In this document: piece by piece, positions 15,973 to 27,571 of the stretch
Numbering within the stretch: position 1 is the first letter of the stretch
How the letters are laid out: every line of letters begins with the position of its first letter
Origin: Natrialba chahannaoensis JCM 10990
GTDB lineage: Archaea; Halobacteriota; Halobacteria; Halobacteriales; Natrialbaceae
Length of the DNA: 38,668 nucleotides
Direction of reading: 5' to 3'
NCBI RefSeq assembly: GCF_000337135.1
Contig: NZ_AOIN01000008.1
Span: 61,320-99,987, forward strand
The notes under the pieces: generated by a model
The model's input: only the letters and a program-made list of their open reading frames with translations
Databases searched by the model: none
Told to the model about the DNA's origin: nothing
Program-made: the position numbers and the translations under genes

Positions 15973-15978
15973 TTTTTG
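15973..15978 (+). promoter_or_regulatory. Putative promoter box of the HNH-like gene
   Basis: T-rich box (TTTTTG) 30 nt before the GTG at 16003, the same spacing as the other leaderless genes here. It is the main reason for preferring that GTG to the TTG that lies inside the box. Confidence 0.35.
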
Positions 15979-16002
15979 TCGGCGCGCTGTCTTCGCTCGC
16001 TC

Positions 16003-17079
16003 GTGACTTCCCGCGAGCGCCGCGTTGATCAGAACCAGGGCCAGGACCAGGACCAGAGCCGAAGCATCGTGTTCGACCGAGACGAATACACCTGTCAGCA
16101 CTGCGGACAGGCGAGCGACGACGCATCGTTGCGGGCACTTGCGGTCGACGACCTGGTGACGGGATCGGCGACCAAGACCGATCCCAACGTGGCTACGGAG
16201 TCGGGACACGTCAGTACGTTCACGACCGTCTGCGCCCCGTGTGCAGCGGTACTCGACGGTGACGGCACAACCGAAGGAGCGGTCGAACAGACCCAGGAAA
16301 TCGAGAAGGCGATCAGCGCCGACACAGAAGCCCCCATGACGAGCGAGCAACTATTCACCCTCGTCCGCGAGACGACGCAGCAACAGGGCGAAACCGTCTC
16401 CGATGTCGCCGCATTCGCCTCACTCACGACGACGCTCCCGGCGAAGATTGCAGACGCCGGTGCAGCAAACAACGAGTCCAAATCTGGCTCTACCGTCGAC
16501 GATAGCAGCGAAACCGATAGCGAAGATAGCGAGGACAGCGAAAACAGCGAAGACACCGAGCGTGTCGAGGCGAACCCAACAACAGCACTCGCCGAAACCG
16601 CACAGCAGTTCGTCGCAACCCGACGATCCCTGCTGCTCGCCATCGCCAGCGTCGACCAGCGACTCACACGACTGGACGAACTCGAGTACGACGCGGCAAC
16701 GGCAACTGGCGACACCAACCCTGGTGATCAGACGCCCGCGTTCGCGGCGTTTCTCGAGACGGCGACGGAGTTACAGGAGACACTTCGGGGACTCGTCTCG
16801 CTCGCCGAGCAGGTAACCGCGGGGCTGGGACGGTGTCACGGCTGTTTCGGGGGGCTCTCCGAGAGCGCAATTCCGGTGACGCCCACGGCCTGCCCGACAT
16901 GCGGGCGAACGAGTGCAGAGACGAGCGAGTGGCAGCAGTCGGCGGCCGATTCAACGACTGTCGACTTCGAGCGGCTCTTTTCGGCACTGAACGACGCGCT
17001 TCGGGAGGCGTCCGCGACAACCGAACGGCTCACTGATCGGACGACAGCGCTCGCGACTGAACTGGTTGCAGCACAGTAA
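16003..17079 (+). CDS. Degenerate HNH-type zinc-binding protein
   Basis: A 358-residue protein whose N-terminus resembles an HNH endonuclease zinc site: FDRDEYTCQHCGQ at residues about 23-35 and VCAPCAAVL about 45 residues later give two CxxC pairs. Where active HNH enzymes have the catalytic His-His, this protein reads LRALAVDDLV, and the final His is also missing, so nuclease activity is unlikely. A middle helical region contains an acidic low-complexity run (Ser-Asp-Glu) at about 165-185. A second Cys-rich patch, CHGCFGGL plus ACPTCGRTS, occupies about 278-308 and looks like another zinc ribbon. The C-terminus is helical. Both zinc motifs suggest nucleic-acid or protein binding. It is divergent from the amphi-Trp/DUF1508 gene. 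Confidence 0.75.
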   Translation: MTSRERRVDQNQGQDQDQSRSIVFDRDEYTCQHCGQASDDASLRALAVDDLVTGSATKTDPNVATESGHVSTFTTVCAPCAAVLDGDGTTEGAVEQTQEIEKAISADTEAPMTSEQLFTLVRETTQQQGETVSDVAAFASLTTTLPAKIADAGAANNESKSGSTVDDSSETDSEDSEDSENSEDTERVEANPTTALAETAQQFVATRRSLLLAIASVDQRLTRLDELEYDAATATGDTNPGDQTPAFAAFLETATELQETLRGLVSLAEQVTAGLGRCHGCFGGLSESAIPVTPTACPTCGRTSAETSEWQQSAADSTTVDFERLFSALNDALREASATTERLTDRTTALATELVAAQ

Positions 17080-17105: not shown

Positions 17106-17834
17106 CTACAGTTCGGTGGCCGACTCGAGTGCGATGTCGATCGCGCGGGCGACGTTGTTCTTCGCCTTTGCTGGCAGTTCGTCGTCCTCGGTGTCGGTTC
17201 CCTTCTGGGTCCCTTCCACGAGGTTGCCGTCAACAGTACAGATTGCGCCGGCGCGCAGGCCCTTGCGGCGGGCGAGCGTGAAGATTGCGGCGGCTTCCAT
17301 CTCGACACAGAGCAGGCCGGCTGCCTCCCAGTCGTCGACTGCCTCGTCCGTTTCGGCGTAGTAGGCGTCGTCGGAGGCGATCGGGCCGACGTGGATGTCC
17401 TCGTCATTGGCTTCTGCGGCGTCGACGAGCGAGGAGAGTACGTCGTACGATGGGACGGCGGGGTACTCCACGTCCTCGTAGCGCTTCGAGGTGCCTTCGT
17501 TCTTCGCTGCGCCGCTGGCGACGACCATATCACCGATTTCGATGCCGGACTGGAGCGCACCGGTCGTGCCGACGCGGACGAACGTCTCGACGCCGACGTT
17601 TGCGAGTTCTTCGATCGCGATTGCCGCAGACGGGCAGCCGATTCCGGTCGAACAGATCGTCAGCTCTCGGCCCTCGTAGGTGGCGTTGACGACCTTGTAC
17701 TCGCGATTCTGTGCGACGGTTTCGGCCTCGTCACAGTGATCTGCGATGCGGTCGACACGGCCCGGGTCACCCGGAAGCAGTGCGATATCGGTCAGGTCTC
17801 CCTTGTCGACCAGCAGATGCGGTTGCGTTGCCAT
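17106..17834 (-). CDS. udp: Nucleoside phosphorylase, uridine phosphorylase type
   Basis: A 242-residue phosphorylase of the PNP/UDP family I, cleaving a nucleoside with phosphate to free base and (deoxy)ribose 1-phosphate. Motifs: LLPGDPGRVDR at residues 19-29 (phosphate binding), VRVGTTGALQ at 86-95 (phosphate and ribose site) and VEMEAAAIF at 177-185 (ribose-binding Glu and Met). These are the signatures of uridine phosphorylase, though purine nucleosides may also be accepted. The length is normal. A T-run 25-30 nt before the ATG fits a leaderless start. Upstream on the same strand come HalOD1, a PfkB kinase, DUF63 and ribose-1,5-bisphosphate isomerase. Together they suggest that its ribose 1-phosphate is fed to the kinase (see finding on the pentose bisphosphate route). 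Confidence 0.92.
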   Translation of the reverse strand: MATQPHLLVDKGDLTDIALLPGDPGRVDRIADHCDEAETVAQNREYKVVNATYEGRELTICSTGIGCPSAAIAIEELANVGVETFVRVGTTGALQSGIEIGDMVVASGAAKNEGTSKRYEDVEYPAVPSYDVLSSLVDAAEANDEDIHVGPIASDDAYYAETDEAVDDWEAAGLLCVEMEAAAIFTLARRKGLRAGAICTVDGNLVEGTQKGTDTEDDELPAKAKNNVARAIDIALESATEL

Positions 17835-17987
17835 ACCGTCGCCTTCCGCGGGTGGCGAGAAAAAAGGTTCGAGAATATGGCGTCTGTGGGCGGCAAACGT
17901 GAGTGACCAGCCGATAGTTCGAGCCGATTGCGGGCGGCGAGCGATCAGTGGAGGACCGAGTCGACTGTGGACGACGAACGACAACCG

Positions 17988-18287
17988 TCAGTTCGAAGCG
18001 ACGAGTACTTCGTCGGGATGAACCGTAACGACGGCATCACCGACGTGGAACGTCACCTGCTCGACGGTGCGTTCGCGACCCATGTTCGTCGACTCGAAAA
18101 GCGAATCGAGCGCTTCCGGATCGACGTAATCGTAGAGCCGCGTACTCGCCTCCGTCACGTCCTCGTCCTGGTACTGCGCCAGCGCCGTTGCGACGGCGAT
18201 ACTCGGTGGTTCCGATGCTGTGCGGTCATACCGGACGCGCCGACCGAGTTCGCATCCGTGGGACTTGGGTGGCCTGTGTTCTGTCAT
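17988..18287 (-). CDS. HalOD1 domain protein
   Basis: A 99-residue protein in which residues about 25-98 match the HalOD1 output domain of haloarchaea: PPSIAVATALAQYQD, then RLYDYVDPEALDSLFES, then VTFHVGDAVVTVHPDEV. HalOD1 is found alone or at the end of bacterio-opsin-activator and PAS proteins and is presumed a regulatory output module; its ligand is unknown. It lies between the nucleoside phosphorylase and the PfkB gene, all on the minus strand, with 150 bp on each side. It may therefore be regulated with them or may regulate them. A GGAG-like sequence upstream of the ATG suggests a leadered start. Confidence 0.85.
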   Translation of the reverse strand: MTEHRPPKSHGCELGRRVRYDRTASEPPSIAVATALAQYQDEDVTEASTRLYDYVDPEALDSLFESTNMGRERTVEQVTFHVGDAVVTVHPDEVLVASN

Positions 18288-18427
18288 GTCTCTCCGTCAC
18301 GTCTCCGTGACTATCTATTCAGGTGGCCAACGGCGCGGCCCATATAGCTACCGTCAGACAACATGGGGTGAGAACCGCATGACGGCACCACCACTGGTGT
18401 CAGACGCTCGTATGACGTATTTTGCGG

Positions 18428-19372
18428 TTAGAATCTCGTACTGAGAAACTCGGTCACCCGCGATAGCGTCGGTGCACTTCGGGCCCCTTCTTCGCTCGCC
18501 GTCAACGCGCCACAGGCGTTTGCGAACTCGAGTGCCCGTTCGATATCCACGCCAGACACCGTCGGCACCGGCGGCATCGACATATCGTCGGCAGTGAGCG
18601 ACTCACCCTCACACTGCTCGAGAAGCGTCGCAATGAACCCCGCGGCGAATGCATCGCCGGCACCGGCTGTGTCGACGGTGTCGACGTCGAATCCGGGGTG
18701 GACGTAGGAGCCGTCTGGCGTGTGGACTTTTGCGCCGTCCCCGCCGTGCTTGACGACGACGATCCGGTCGTCGAACGCCGAGCCGACGTACTCGTCTTCG
18801 AGGAGGCTGGCGATTTCCTGATCGTTCGCGAAGACGATGTCGGCGACGGCGAGCGCGTCGGTGTAGTCACGGTCACAGAGTCGCCGTCCCGGATCGAAGC
18901 TGACGCTGACGCCGGCCTCGTTCGCTGTCTGGGCGATCGCACCAGCGGTCTCGGGTCGTTGACTCGTGAGATGGACGTGGTCTGCGTCGCGAATCCGATC
19001 GTGGTCGAGATCTGCGGGCGTAACGGCCTCGTTGACGCCGTCGTTCCCGAGGACGGCGACCTCGCCCTCGTCGTCGACGAGCAAATACTTGACCGCAGTG
19101 TCCGCACCCTCGACGACCCGGAGCCCGTCGAGCGAGACGCCGACGGACTCGAGTTCCCGACTGGCCAGCAGGCCGTTGTCGTCGTCGCCGACGCTGCCGA
19201 TGAGACCGGTATCGAGAGAGAGGTTCGCGAGGGCGGCGGCGACGTTCGCGGCGCTGCCACCGCCGGAGCGGTGCTGGGATCGGATTACCGACTCACAGTC
19301 GGCTTCGGGGAGCCGATCGACACGAAGGGTCACATCCCAGTTAACGTGACCGGCAGTGAGCACCCTGACCAT
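18428..19372 (-). CDS. PfkB-family sugar kinase, candidate ribose-1-phosphate kinase
   Basis: A 314-residue ribokinase-like enzyme. The glycine-rich signature GGGSAANVA is at residues 37-45. The C-terminal signature DTAGAGDAF (235-242) contains the anion hole and catalytic base Asp240. The N-terminal lid begins with HVNWDVTLRVDRLPE. In halophilic archaea a PfkB enzyme phosphorylates ribose 1-phosphate at C5 to give ribose 1,5-bisphosphate. Its position between a nucleoside phosphorylase and a ribose-1,5-bisphosphate isomerase makes that substrate the leading hypothesis here. Ribokinase or another sugar kinase activity is the alternative. Only 32 bp separate it from the upstream DUF63 stop, but a CTTTTC box 30 nt before the ATG suggests it also has a start of its own. 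Confidence 0.88.
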   Translation of the reverse strand: MVRVLTAGHVNWDVTLRVDRLPEADCESVIRSQHRSGGGSAANVAAALANLSLDTGLIGSVGDDDNGLLASRELESVGVSLDGLRVVEGADTAVKYLLVDDEGEVAVLGNDGVNEAVTPADLDHDRIRDADHVHLTSQRPETAGAIAQTANEAGVSVSFDPGRRLCDRDYTDALAVADIVFANDQEIASLLEDEYVGSAFDDRIVVVKHGGDGAKVHTPDGSYVHPGFDVDTVDTAGAGDAFAAGFIATLLEQCEGESLTADDMSMPPVPTVSGVDIERALEFANACGALTASEEGARSAPTLSRVTEFLSTRF

Positions 19373-19404
19373 TCATCGGAACGACGACCGCGGGTGAGAA
19401 AAGT

Positions 19405-20226
19405 CTAGGCAACTGCGAACAGGAGCACGTTGTGTGCGCCCGGACCGAGGCCGACGGCGGCGATGAACGCGAGCACGAGTCGCGCCTGCCGTGGAGCCTC
19501 CTCGACGTACTCGCGGAAGAGACCGAGGATGACCATCGCGAGCGCGAGTTTGACGACGATGAACAGCCAGCCGCCACCGATGTACTCGGCTGTCGGCAGT
19601 GCGTGACCGGCGTTGAGGACAAGTTCCGAAAGTGGGACTTCCTCACCAGCGCCGAGAATGTCGTAGCCGATTGCGGTCGAGACGCCGTCGAGTGCGTGGC
19701 CGAAGACAACGAGCACGCCCGTCGCCCCCGTGATTGCTGCGACATCAGTGAACCAGAGGCCGAGAATTAGCCAAGCGAGCGCGGTGACGACGCCGGAGAT
19801 GACGATGGCGATCACGGGCCAGAACGGTTCGAACGTTCCGAGTTCGACGCTCTCGACCAGCAGAAACATCGTGAAGACGGCGAAGAATCCGGTTCCAATG
19901 GTCCCGAGCGGCCGCTCGATCGTCTCCTGCAGGCCGCCGCTGTAGAGGAAGATTGACAGCACCCAGGCAACTCCCGCAATCGTCGCCGTCACCAGATAGA
20001 CACTCGGCGCGGCAAACAGTACTTCTATCGAGTCAGGATACGCCTCGGTCCGGTGAAGAACGTGCAACGTCGACCCGAACAGCATCCACGGCGCAAACGC
20101 AAGCACCGTCCGGTCGGTGACTGGCGGCCCCAACGCCCACAGCAGCGCAACGACACCTCCGAGCACGGCGAGGAGTGGTACGAGAAGGTACCACGCCGGG
20201 AGGACGAAACCCTCAGGCAATACCAT
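19405..20226 (-). CDS. DUF63 family multipass membrane protein
   Basis: A 273-residue protein with about seven to eight transmembrane segments. It begins VLPEGFVLPAWYLLVPLLAV, as the archaeal DUF63 family does. Family-like polar intramembrane positions include GSTLHVLHRTEAYPDS (about 49-64), VFGHALDGVSTAIGYD (His and Asp inside a helix) and NAGHALPTAEYIGGGW. The function of DUF63 is unknown. Here it lies between the sugar kinase and the ribose-1,5-bisphosphate isomerase on the same strand, gaps 32 and 37 bp, so co-transcription is likely. This hints at a role in nucleoside or pentose-phosphate metabolism, such as uptake; that is inference. The start MVLPEGF is chosen by family, not the ATG 23 codons upstream. 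Confidence 0.87.
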   Translation of the reverse strand: MVLPEGFVLPAWYLLVPLLAVLGGVVALLWALGPPVTDRTVLAFAPWMLFGSTLHVLHRTEAYPDSIEVLFAAPSVYLVTATIAGVAWVLSIFLYSGGLQETIERPLGTIGTGFFAVFTMFLLVESVELGTFEPFWPVIAIVISGVVTALAWLILGLWFTDVAAITGATGVLVVFGHALDGVSTAIGYDILGAGEEVPLSELVLNAGHALPTAEYIGGGWLFIVVKLALAMVILGLFREYVEEAPRQARLVLAFIAAVGLGPGAHNVLLFAVA

Positions 20227-20263
20227 ATCCCTACTGTTGACACCAGTAACTAACACTTTCCGA

Positions 20264-21343
20264 TCAGTGATGGTCCGTCTGACGGGAGCAAACACACTCT
20301 TCCCAGGGTTCTGCCGTCGTCTCGCCGAACAACTCGCGCATCAGCGTGACAATACTCTCAGGTGGGAACTGCCCGCGTTCGGTGACGATAGCGTCGATGT
20401 ACCGCGGCGGCGTCACGTCGAACGCGGGGTTTTCGACAGTGAGATCGCTCTCGCTTTGGCTACTGTCTTTGTCGTCGTTCCCGTCTACGGCAGTCGATCG
20501 GGACTCGGCCCCCTCACTGGGAGACTCGATCTCCACCCGTTCCTCCAGCGAGAGCACCTCCTGCTCGTCGCGCATCTCGATCGCAACCGTATGCCCCGTC
20601 ATCGTATCCGGATGTAACTTGATCGTCTGAGCCGCCACCATCACCGGCACGCCGCGTTCGCGTGCGTTCACCGCCAGCCCACTTGTCCCGATCTTGTTGA
20701 TCACGCTTCCGTCCGCCGCGATGCTGTCGGCTCCGACCAGCACGTGATCCGCCTCGTCCAGATACCGCCGCGCCGCGTTGTCCACGATCAGCGTCACCGG
20801 AACACCCAGCTCGCGCAACTGGCGCGCCGTAATATGGCCCTGCTTTCTCGGTCGGGTTTCCTTGACTATTGCTTCGATATGCGTGCCGGACTCGAGTGCG
20901 GCCTCGATACACGACAGGGCGTCCGTCGAGTGACAGTGTGTCATTACCACGTCGCCGTCGCGGAGGCGGTTCGCGCCGATCTCGCCGAGCGTCGACTGGG
21001 CTTGCTCGAGTTCGGTGCGAAACGTGTCGGCGCGCTCGATGGTCGATTTGCGGAGGGCAGCGACGGTTTCGCCCTCCACCCCACGGAGGACGTATCGGAG
21101 GGCGTTTGGGAGGCTGACAGCGGTGGGGCGTGTTTCATAGAGTTCGCGTGCACCGGCGCGGAGGTTGCGCTCAAAGGCCGCCGGATCGGTTGCCGTGGAG
21201 CGTTCGGCCTGTGTCGCGAGCGCCGCGGCGGCCGCGTCTGCGATCGTCGCAGCGCCGCGAATCCGCATGGTTGCGATGTCGGCGGCCGTGTCGGTGACGG
21301 CCGGATCGACGGCGGGTTGGTTCGGGTCCGGATCCGATTCCAT
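20264..21343 (-). CDS. Ribose-1,5-bisphosphate isomerase (eIF2B-like)
   Basis: A 359-residue eIF2B-alpha-like isomerase converting ribose 1,5-bisphosphate to ribulose 1,5-bisphosphate. The candidate catalytic residues are Cys137 (MTHCHST) and Asp206 ([10 protein letters not shown]). They are 69 residues apart, the same spacing as the catalytic Cys133 and Asp202 of the Thermococcus kodakarensis enzyme. Other signatures: [11 protein letters not shown] at about 29-39, VNKIGT-type [11 protein letters not shown] at 215-225 and [18 protein letters not shown] at 305-322. Odd: an acidic insertion of about 30 residues (Glu, Ser, Asp) at about 272-302, just before the last conserved block, and a hydrophilic tail [12 protein letters not shown]. 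It is the first gene of the minus-strand cluster, divergent from deoC with a 71-bp shared promoter region. Confidence 0.9.
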
Positions 21344-21385
21344 GTCATGGAGTTACACGCCCCCGGCCAAAAGTAATCGGGCGGG

Positions 21386-21391
21386 TTTTTG
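21386..21391 (+). promoter_or_regulatory. Putative TATA-like box of deoC
   Basis: T-rich box 29 nt before the deoC ATG, within the 71-bp divergent region shared with the isomerase gene, whose own T-rich box (minus strand) lies about 28-30 nt from its start. One regulator here could control both transcripts. Confidence 0.45.
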
Positions 21392-21414
21392 ATCGTTCGA
21401 CGAGTCGGTCCGCT

Positions 21415-22116
21415 ATGGCTCCGGAACTGGATCGCGCCGAACTTGCGCCGTTGATCGACCACACCGTCCTCGGTCCCGAGACGACGACCGACGACGTGAC
21501 TGCCGTGCTGGAGGAGGCAGCTGAACACGGTATGAACGCCTGTATTCCGCCCTACGCGGTCGAGGACGCCGCTGCAGCCCACGAGGAGCTGACGATTGCA
21601 ACGGTCATCGGCTTCCCACACGGCCAGCAGACACACGAGATCAAGCGCCGCGAGGGCGTCGAGGCCTGGAAAGCCGGTGCGGACGAACTCGATGTCGTCA
21701 TCAACATCGGCCGGCTGAAAGCCGGCGAGGACGACGTGGTCCGAGCCGAACTGGCCGAACTCGTCGCCGCAGTCCCGATTCCGGTCAAGGTCATCATCGA
21801 AACCGCACTCCTCACCGAAGAGGAGAAACACCGGGCCTGCGAGGCCGCCGTGGCCGCAGACGCGACGATGGTGAAAACCTCGACTGGATTCGCGAGCGTT
21901 GATCCGGAGGATCAACGAGCGAACGGTGAAACCGTGAGCGGGGGCGCGACGATCGCGGACGTCGAACTGATGAGCGAGTACTTGCCAGTCAAGGCAAGCG
22001 GTGGCATCGGCAACTACGACGAGGCGATGTCGATGATCGAGGCCGGGGCCGAGCGGATCGGGGCCTCGAGTGGGATCGATATTTTGTCGGGTGCGCCGAC
22101 AGCAGAGAGGAAGTAG
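21415..22116 (+). CDS. deoC: Deoxyribose-phosphate aldolase
   Basis: A 233-residue class I aldolase splitting 2-deoxyribose 5-phosphate into glyceraldehyde 3-phosphate and acetaldehyde. Asp93 (ELDVVI) and the Schiff-base Lys154 (MVKTSTGF) are present, as is Lys193 (PVKASGGIG), the third member of the catalytic network. [12 protein letters not shown] at 13-24 is the usual N-terminal family start. The length is standard. It is transcribed away from the isomerase/DUF63/kinase/phosphorylase run, so the same neighbourhood covers both the ribose and the deoxyribose branches of nucleoside breakdown. A phosphopentomutase that would make deoxyribose 5-phosphate from the phosphorylase product is not in the window. 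Confidence 0.95.
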
Positions 22117-22877: not shown

Positions 22878-23717
22878 TCAGCTCACGTCTGCAGATTTAA
22901 ATCGCACGTATCCAATGGCGAGCGGTGCGACGATCCACGCACAGAGGACGACGGGTGCAAACTCCGGTTGGACGTAGAACGGCGCGTCGGCTGGCGGGAG
23001 ACTACCCGCCGCGATGTCAACGTCAATCGTCCGTGTGATCTGAAAGAGCGCTTCGCTGGGGAGGAGTTGCGAAACAAAACGGTACAGCATGGGCGCTTCG
23101 GCGAAGCCGAGTACGTCTACGTGGATCCGCCGTACCAGATACCCAGCCGAGACGAACAGTGTGAACACGTTGAGCGTGACGTACACGCCGAAGCCGGCGG
23201 CCGCTGCACGGGCCTTACTGGCGACCGACGCAGAGATACCGATCGCGATGGCGACGTAGATGACGGCGTAGAGGGCCACCATCCCCACCGTGGCGAGATA
23301 CGTCCCAACCGGGAAAACCGGATACAGCGCAAGCAGCGAGACAGCGACGACGAGCGAGGCACAGGCGACGCCGAGTACGATCACCGCACTTCGGCTCAGG
23401 AACTTGCCTACGACGACATCCCGGCGCGTGTTCGGCAACCCGAGCAGGAACGCGATACTGCCGGTCTCTCGCTCGCCGGCGATGGCAAGGTAGGCCACGA
23501 CCAGCGCGACGACGGGAATCAGGAGCGAGCCAATCGTAGCGACGCCGGCCAGAACCGAAACGACACCCTCGCGGGCAGTGTCGTGAAACCGTACCTGGCT
23601 TCTCTGTATGAACATGAAGAATCCGACAAACCCGACGTAGATGGCAACGGCGAGCCAGACGATCTTCGATCGACGGGCGTCCAGAAAGTCCTTCCGAGCA
23701 ACGTCGAGCGCACTCAT
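22878..23717 (-). CDS. ABC-2 type transporter permease
   Basis: A 279-residue permease with six membrane segments: one near 20-36, then a cluster beginning LLIPVVALVVAYLAIAGERE, and a last helix at about 253-272. The segment AGERETGSIAFLLGLPNTRRDVVVGKFL is the family's conserved cytoplasmic coupling region (NosY/ABC-2 like). The start ATG overlaps the stop of the ATPase gene by 4 nt, so they form one translation-coupled unit. The exported substrate is unknown. NatB-like and NosY-like permeases share this layout. Confidence 0.88.
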   Translation of the reverse strand: MSALDVARKDFLDARRSKIVWLAVAIYVGFVGFFMFIQRSQVRFHDTAREGVVSVLAGVATIGSLLIPVVALVVAYLAIAGERETGSIAFLLGLPNTRRDVVVGKFLSRSAVIVLGVACASLVVAVSLLALYPVFPVGTYLATVGMVALYAVIYVAIAIGISASVASKARAAAAGFGVYVTLNVFTLFVSAGYLVRRIHVDVLGFAEAPMLYRFVSQLLPSEALFQITRTIDVDIAAGSLPPADAPFYVQPEFAPVVLCAWIVAPLAIGYVRFKSADVS

Positions 23718-24760
23718 ACTGATACCTCCGTGGACGACTGGCGACCATCGCCAGTTCCGTCGTCAGTAGCGCCACTACCACCACCACCGCTGCCACCGAC
23801 ATCACCACTACCGCCACTACCACTACCGACATCACCACTGCCACCCCCGTCAGGAACATCTCCCGTGTAGCGATTGAACAACTCCTCCATCGAAGCCGGT
23901 TCAGAGATAATGTCCGCAACCGACGCCCGCTCGTCGACGTGCCTCACCACGTCCACCTTCGCAGCCGCATCGTGGCAGTCAACGCGGAGCTCCGATCCCT
24001 CGAGTGCAACCGTCTCGATGGCGGGCCGTTGAGCGAGGTCAGCGGTGATCGACTCCGGCACCGACTCGAGTACCAGCCGAATTTGCGACGATTGCTCCAG
24101 GTCGTCGCGGAGCGCCTCGATGTTGTCGAGGGCGACCAACCGCCCGCCGGACATGATGGCGACGCGATCACAGACAGCTTCGACCTCGGAGAGGACGTGA
24201 CTCGAAAAGAAGACGGTCGTCCCGTCGGCAGCGAGTTCCTGAATTATCGCACGCAACTCCTGAACCCCGGTTGGATCGAGTCCGGACGACGGCTCATCGA
24301 GGACGAGAAGATCCGGATCGCCGACGAGCGCCATCCCGAAAGCGAGTCGCTGGCACATGCCTTTCGAGAAGCCGCCGGCGCGACGGTCCGCTGCGTCGGC
24401 GATGCCGACCCGTTCGAGGATGGTGTGGGGGTCGTCGGCTGCGTCTTTCGTTCGGATGACCCACTCGAGATGCTCACGAGCGGTCAGCCTGTCGTAGAGG
24501 CTGTAGCCGTCGGGGAGGACGCCGATTCGTTTGCGGGTCGGTGCGAACTCGCCGCTGACATCCTGGCCGAGCACCGTGGCGCGACCGGCAGTCGGGGCAA
24601 CGTAGCCGAGGAGGATATTGATCGTCGTCGACTTTCCCGCGCCGTTGGGGCCGAGAAAGCCGAATATCTCGCCTTCGTCGACGCTGAAGGAGAGGTCATC
24701 GACGGCGAGGACGCCGCCCGCAAATTCTTTCCGAAGACTGTTTACTTCGAGAGGCGACAT
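23714..24760 (-). CDS. ABC transporter ATP-binding protein with Gly/Ser-rich tail
   Basis: A 348-residue ATPase. Walker A GPNGAGKS is at 37-44, the signature reads FSKGMCQRL at 131-139 (instead of LSGGQ, a common variant in ABC-2 ATPases), and Walker B LLVLDEP is at 151-157. The D-loop SSGLD and H-loop SSHVLSEVE follow. Residues about 215-300 are the usual accessory domain of ABC-2 exporters. Odd: the last about 45 residues are a Gly-Ser-Asp low-complexity tail (GSGGSGDVGGSG-like) that no family member needs. It was probably made by expansion of CCACCACCG-type DNA repeats and may be a flexible linker. The gene starts about 28 nt after a TATTTCC box and is divergent from the secreted-protein gene. 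Confidence 0.9.
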   Translation of the reverse strand: MSPLEVNSLRKEFAGGVLAVDDLSFSVDEGEIFGFLGPNGAGKSTTINILLGYVAPTAGRATVLGQDVSGEFAPTRKRIGVLPDGYSLYDRLTAREHLEWVIRTKDAADDPHTILERVGIADAADRRAGGFSKGMCQRLAFGMALVGDPDLLVLDEPSSGLDPTGVQELRAIIQELAADGTTVFFSSHVLSEVEAVCDRVAIMSGGRLVALDNIEALRDDLEQSSQIRLVLESVPESITADLAQRPAIETVALEGSELRVDCHDAAAKVDVVRHVDERASVADIISEPASMEELFNRYTGDVPDGGGSGDVGSGSGGSGDVGGSGGGGSGATDDGTGDGRQSSTEVSV

Positions 24761-26392: not shown

Positions 26393-27571
26393 TTACTCCG
26401 TCTCGAGTAGCCGCGAAACCACGGGCGACTCATCGGACCCGAGCGCCGACCGGACGAGCAGGTGGCCGCCGAGTTCGGCGAGGCTGATGACATCGTCGGC
26501 ACCGGCGCGCTTGAGTTTTGCCGTGTTCTCGCGATCGGTTGCGGCAGTGACGATGCGAACATCCGGCCGGAGTTCGCGGGCGGTGAGAACCGCCAGCGCG
26601 TCTTCAGCATCGTTGTTCGTTGCGACGAGCACGGTGCGTGCGCTCTCGATTTTCGCCCGTTGAAGCGGCCCTTCGTCGCTTGGGTTCCCGGAAAGGACAC
26701 GGATATCGCGCTCTGTCAATTCGCTTGCAGCCGTTTCGTCTCTGGTGACGACGAGGAACTGTTCGTCCGCGTCGGCGAGTTTGTTGACGATCGGTTCGGT
26801 CAGGTCCCCGTAGCCGAGGACGAGCACGTGGTTCTCGAGGAGTTCGAGTTCTGAATCGGTCATAATTCCGAGTGTCTTTGAAATCCGGGCCTGGATTGCC
26901 GGGCCGACGAGCGCACCGATGGCGATACCGAAGCTTGCGACGCCGAGAACGACGACAGTCATAGTGAAGACGATGGCCATCTCAGTCTCGGGCCCGATAT
27001 CGCCGTAGCCGACGGTGCTCGACGTGATCAGGGTGAAGTAGAAGGCGTCGAGCAGCGTTTCGATGCCGTCGAACTCGTCGGCCAGCGCGTACGCGCCGAA
27101 GGTGCCGTAGGCCTGCACACCGACGAGCGCGCCGCCCGCAGCGAGTTGCGTCGTCGTCAGCGAGAGTGACCGGTCGAACCGCCGACGCGTCAACAACAGT
27201 GTCGGCATCGAGACGAGCGAGAGCACGACTAGCGGATAGGAGTACTGACTGGCCTGGAGCAGCCCCTGGGCTGCCGTCAGCGGCATGAGAAGCAGGGTCG
27301 CCCACCAGCCAGCACGCAGCCCCCGGCGAAGTGCGAGCGCGCTTCCGACCATCAAAAAGCCAGTCAACGCGCCGGTAAAGCCTGCGCCATCCTGCACGGA
27401 TTCTGGGACGTGCGGTGCGAGCGGTCCTGAGACGCCCCCCGTTTCGATGTTAATAATCCCGATGACGACGGAGAGCATCGCGACGAGCAAGGCGAGACCA
27501 ACGGCTGCGCGCGTCGTCACGATCCAGCGCCAGTTCTCCGGCAATCGTTCGGTCACCCACTCACCGACCAT
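26393..27571 (-). CDS. Potassium channel with RCK (TrkA-N) domain
   Basis: A 392-residue protein. Four or more N-terminal membrane helices cover about 20-160, and a pore module at about 170-225 carries the selectivity filter TVGYGD at 186-191, between an outer and an inner helix. A cytoplasmic RCK/TrkA-N domain at about 245-375 has the nucleotide-binding strand HVLVLGYGDLTEP, in which the third glycine of GxGxxG is replaced. It then runs through FLVVTRDE and TVLVATNNDAEDALAVLTARE. Such channels conduct K+ and are gated by ligand binding to RCK. Extra helices before the pore are seen in several haloarchaeal members. It stands alone and borders the AT-rich insert at its 3' end. Confidence 0.9.
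   Translation of the reverse strand: MVGEWVTERLPENWRWIVTTRAAVGLALLVAMLSVVIGIINIETGGVSGPLAPHVPESVQDGAGFTGALTGFLMVGSALALRRGLRAGWWATLLLMPLTAAQGLLQASQYSYPLVVLSLVSMPTLLLTRRRFDRSLSLTTTQLAAGGALVGVQAYGTFGAYALADEFDGIETLLDAFYFTLITSSTVGYGDIGPETEMAIVFTMTVVVLGVASFGIAIGALVGPAIQARISKTLGIMTDSELELLENHVLVLGYGDLTEPIVNKLADADEQFLVVTRDETAASELTERDIRVLSGNPSDEGPLQRAKIESARTVLVATNNDAEDALAVLTARELRPDVRIVTAATDRENTAKLKRAGADDVISLAELGGHLLVRSALGSDESPVVSRLLETE

Follow-up and report, generated by a model that had tools for sequence, protein, structure and literature searches.

A DUF63 membrane protein within a putative haloarchaeal nucleoside-breakdown gene cluster

Haloarchaeal operons that encode ribose-1,5-bisphosphate (R15P) isomerase, ATP-dependent ribose-1-phosphate (R1P) kinase and guanosine phosphorylase have already been published (Sato et al. 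2022, PMC9700705), and the block described here contains the same three enzymes. The published locus tags (Htur_0567, 0569 and 0571; VNG_1850, 1851 and 1853) are spaced so that exactly one tag falls in the slot that DUF63 occupies in our block, and the figure legend refers to further operon genes without naming them (PMC9700705); DUF63, transport and uptake all go unmentioned in the text of that paper. Judging from the Natrialbaceae and family-f2 loci, the gene in the tag gap is probably DUF63. The arrangement of DUF63, presented as new in a preliminary description of the locus, is thus new in part: the operon had been published, and a single gene separates kinase and isomerase in its tag numbering. 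The pentose bisphosphate pathway of Thermococcales (AMP phosphorylase, R15P isomerase and Rubisco) is similar in that R15P isomerase is followed by Rubisco, but its entry differs—entry here is through nucleoside phosphorylase and ATP-dependent R1P kinase, and the genome has no AMP phosphorylase above the cut-off (best score, 41.9 bits against 535).

Nearly all haloarchaea and related methanogens encode a member of DUF63, a domain-of-unknown-function family. Our literature search found no paper tying DUF63 to a nucleoside or RuBP pathway, no work on the locus tags presumed to be DUF63 in H. salinarum and others, and nothing useful on haloarchaeal nucleoside transport; in one DUF63 paper, HVO_2859 appears only in a table of OxsR-bound sites. 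We tentatively explain the present locus (probability of roughly 0.45) as a haloarchaeal nucleoside-breakdown cluster with a repurposed DUF63 paralog (DUF63-B), for which the best candidate role is that of a small membrane carrier of nucleosides or free bases. With a clear gene partner, changed conserved residues and a confident structural model, DUF63-B offers a concrete, testable handle on the family.

The gene block and the fate of RuBP

We analysed a window of 38,668 nucleotides from Natrialba chahannaoensis JCM 10990, in which the following genes form the block and its divergent neighbour.

20264–21343, minus strand: R15P isomerase, which opens the block (TIGR00511, 451 bits; cut-off 314)
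19405–20226, minus strand: DUF63 paralog B, 273 amino acids (PF01889, 66 bits; gathering cut-off 25)
18428–19372, minus strand: ATP-dependent R1P kinase (NF053626, 477 bits; cut-off 330), with a GAGD motif in DTAGAGDAFAAGF
17988–18287, minus strand: single-domain HalOD1 protein (PF18545, 69 bits)
17106–17834, minus strand: nucleoside phosphorylase (PF01048, 156 bits), with a likely ATG at 17834 in an ORF that opens at 17984
21415–22116, plus strand: deoC, deoxyribose-phosphate aldolase (TIGR00126, 183 bits; cut-off 117)

Family searches and coordinates place all of these genes, including the divergent deoC, where the preliminary description had them, and its gaps of 37 bp (isomerase–DUF63) and 32 bp (DUF63–kinase) are both correct. 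The gaps between kinase and HalOD1 (140 bp) and between HalOD1 and phosphorylase (~153 bp) are such that co-transcription of the latter two genes is not a given; both may have promoters of their own, and a T-rich stretch lies 5′ of the phosphorylase gene. The closest relatives found are other Natrialba, in which DUF63 is 94–95% identical, and deoC is a conserved divergent partner of the cluster. Around the block, a protein without a Pfam match but with CxxC-type motifs (15976–17079) is convergent with the phosphorylase gene and occupies the same place in other Natrialbaceae (L122, L123 and L130), and an ABC transporter ATPase (23714–24760) has a long Gly/Ser-rich C-terminal tail. A TrkA-type potassium channel gene lies at 26393–27571; in other families, its homologs are located past the phosphorylase gene, at the opposite end of the cluster, which suggests a rearrangement in Natrialbaceae.

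The enzymes would channel nucleosides towards RuBP—the phosphorylase would release R1P, which the kinase and isomerase would convert to RuBP. These three steps had been proposed in the preliminary description and are supported; the isomerase and the kinase both score above their cut-offs. The best PDB match of the isomerase is the ribose-1,5-bisphosphate isomerase 5yfj, and its THCHS and GADSI stretches are conserved. The phosphorylase scores 219 bits against TIGR01718 (uridine phosphorylase), under the cut-off of 280, and is putatively placed, by position and homology only, at the Urdpase1/guanosine phosphorylase position. A type III Rubisco is encoded elsewhere in the genome (contig C61; TIGR03326, 623 bits; cut-off 497). 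By contrast, the genome (96.8% complete) gave no match to PF00596 (Aldolase_II), the family of FucA-type aldolases, which is present in 12 of 14 control genomes. Given the type III Rubisco and the lack of both a FucA-type aldolase and an AMP phosphorylase, RuBP here most likely goes to Rubisco, which would yield 3-phosphoglycerate. The non-carboxylating pathway, which uses a HAD phosphatase and a FucA aldolase and occurs in genomes without Rubisco (PMC9700705), had been assigned to this locus and was rejected on the same findings; of its enzymes, R15P isomerase and ATP-dependent R1P kinase are present. Among the published routes, the genome instead matches the Rubisco-dependent one without NMP phosphorylase, having both R15P isomerase and Rubisco, and the RuBP route assigned to Natrialba chahannaoensis is corrected accordingly.

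Linkage of DUF63-B to phosphorylase and deoC

We surveyed 292 haloarchaeal genomes and read 60 neighbourhoods. DUF63 was detected in all 292 genomes, with a paralog-B match at E < 1e-30 in every genome except G218, G253 and G285, and the phosphorylase is as near-universal as DUF63-B (291 of 292 at E ≤ 1e-80). In 112 of 122 genomes, DUF63-B is encoded upstream of the phosphorylase gene at a distance of no more than 5 kb and on the same strand. This applies to every one of the 28 genomes that lack the kinase or have it at another place; these 28 come from few lineages and hence represent far fewer independent events. Where a genome lacks both kinase and isomerase or has them at another place, DUF63-B mostly still sits between the divergent deoC and the phosphorylase. 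A tally over 71 complete named loci gave 60 with the phosphorylase, 58 with deoC, 54 with the kinase and 43 with the isomerase; the 17 loci without kinase keep the phosphorylase in 13 cases and deoC in 12. The reverse also occurs, with the phosphorylase elsewhere and DUF63 beside the kinase in eight genomes (G043, G045, G071, G101, G123, G142, G239 and G265; the kinase place in G071 is taken from its congeners), and DUF63-B is apart from all block genes in three loci (L101, L102 and L105); both sets of cases count against our preferred explanation. On these counts, the eight reverse cases included, DUF63-B is a member of the entire nucleoside cluster rather than of its RuBP part. In the proposed history, an ancient archaeal family of membrane proteins would have supplied a copy that was repurposed and joined the deoC–phosphorylase core, not the RuBP enzymes.

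The main rival, which we consider somewhat unlikely, casts DUF63-B as a bystander: a membrane protein of essential or housekeeping function that merely keeps an ancestral place beside deoC and phosphorylase. Its near-universal presence in haloarchaea would fit such a role, as would the distribution of the wider family. Of the phylum's 148 genomes, 140 have a member; the related archaea searched mostly carry only one copy, and no block genes lie nearby (0 of 20 methanogen loci). The wider neighbourhood (MiaB-like gene, TrkA-type channel and HPP/Usp) is conserved too, and the persistence of the channel and MiaB-like genes, neither of which has a plausible nucleoside role, speaks against a functional linkage. 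Distance separates these genes from the cluster, however. Within 6.5 kb of DUF63-B in 47 loci, the phosphorylase (37) and deoC (39) are accompanied by the TrkA-type channel (31) and the MiaB-like gene (24); within 3.5 kb, the phosphorylase (34) and deoC (37) remain far above these controls (7 and 13, respectively). Ancestral gene order therefore explains the linkage in part but not wholly, given that unrelated neighbours are also kept but drop out at the shorter range. The short, same-strand spacing across families, the tendency of broken clusters to leave DUF63-B with one of their genes and residue changes that point to a new role (below) likewise argue against a bystander.

The DUF63 family and the DUF63-B model

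In a tree of the family, all 22 B copies form one clade (SH-aLRT 100) on a long stem (1.52), and the copies of the sister paralog DUF63-A cluster with those of methanogens. All 36 A and methanogen copies have Arg at position 55, Asp at 59 and Arg at 265; in B copies, positions 55 and 265 are His in 91% and 86%, respectively, Glu-Asp is gone at 58–59 and Leu replaces Arg at 269. Thus, unlike methanogen DUF63 and DUF63-A, with which it has H177, D180, K226, G259 and P262 in common, DUF63-B lacks R55, E58, D59, R265 and R269, has fixed W47 (100%) and W88 (96%), and stands in a different gene neighbourhood. These changes look like repurposing, and a charged site may have been replaced by one suiting an uncharged aromatic substrate.

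The AlphaFold2 model of DUF63-B consists of eight long hydrophobic helices (pLDDT 94.7, pTM 0.90). Under our preferred explanation, the protein would be a small carrier or carrier subunit, and its cargo, either a nucleoside or a free base, would be a substrate or product that every version of the cluster shares. The movement of nucleosides or bases suggested for DUF63 in the preliminary description may thus still be right. Against the carrier reading, there is no structural or sequence match, so nothing independent says carrier: Foldseek of the model against the PDB gave no match at E ≤ 0.001 (best E, 0.26), and a profile search found no solved relatives up to E of 1, results that argue neither for a known fold nor for a new one. 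We regard as rather unlikely the broader proposal that DUF63-B founds a new haloarchaeal nucleoside/nucleobase carrier family, in which an old membrane protein had its charged site swapped for an aromatic one. The fold of XPR1, a phosphate exporter, recurred in the VIA list for the model, with a best Z of 6.9 (rmsd 7.0 over 192 residues) that is under the trust threshold of the tool, and was not accepted given Z < 8, the rmsd of ~7 and the Foldseek E value.

The neighbourhoods of the other DUF63 copies are distinct. Methanogen loci (L183–L202) have a conserved context of a glycerol-1-phosphate-dehydrogenase (G1PDH)-type gene and UPF0179, then SpoIIM and prolyl-tRNA synthetase (ProS), the names G1PDH and ProS being putative readings of the sequence. 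The second DUF63 gene of the Natrialba genome (paralog A; L283:6821–8874) lies directly behind an inositol-monophosphatase-family (Inositol_P) gene, a pair that recurs in several haloarchaeal families. The head-to-head arrangement of methanogen DUF63 with the G1PDH-type gene (16 of 20 loci) and the Inositol_P pairing of DUF63-A could indicate that DUF63-B is a membrane enzyme or a lipid-related protein, as could the retention of H177, D180 and K226 in helices. We consider this improbable—the invariant charged residues common to A and methanogen copies are lost in B, and B loci have none of the genes that neighbour DUF63 in methanogens.

That DUF63-B serves as a membrane-bound sensor or regulator of the cluster, possibly in partnership with HalOD1, is very improbable. 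HalOD1 does lie within the same block in Natrialbaceae, occupying the same slot (41 of the 71 complete named loci), but the cluster lacks it in the majority of other families, and the DUF63-B model is almost all membrane helices, with no cytoplasmic signalling domain.

DUF63-B relative to the kinase and isomerase

In contrast to the near-universal DUF63-B, the kinase and isomerase are patchy in haloarchaea, scoring above their cut-offs in 228 and 190 of the 292 genomes, respectively. Among the 111 genomes common to the match lists of DUF63-B and the kinase, which comprise the best ~150 matches for each gene and so do not give full counts, 92 have DUF63-B immediately upstream of the kinase (same strand, <500 bp), 5 have it farther away at up to 5 kb and 14 have it at another place. 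No enzyme of the block was near DUF63-A, the sister paralog (0 of 17 loci), or near methanogen DUF63 (0 of 20), so that proximity is specific to paralog B, and the association noted in the preliminary description is indeed non-random. DUF63 and the kinase often occur together without the isomerase, and eight kinase–isomerase loci away from the cluster (L133–L138, L145 and L146) have no DUF63 adjoining. We therefore rejected the idea that DUF63 travels with kinase and isomerase. A dedicated role in the nucleoside-to-RuBP route, as proposed in the preliminary description, is strongly disfavoured despite the frequent position of DUF63-B next to the kinase, because DUF63-B is retained without kinase or isomerase, staying with phosphorylase and deoC, and relocated kinase–isomerase pairs lack it.

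The isomerase of the window carries an acidic Ser/Asp-rich insert of ~25–30 residues (about residues 269–299) between its two conserved parts, and its relatives in two genomes (G032 and G163) score under the family norm, as if split.
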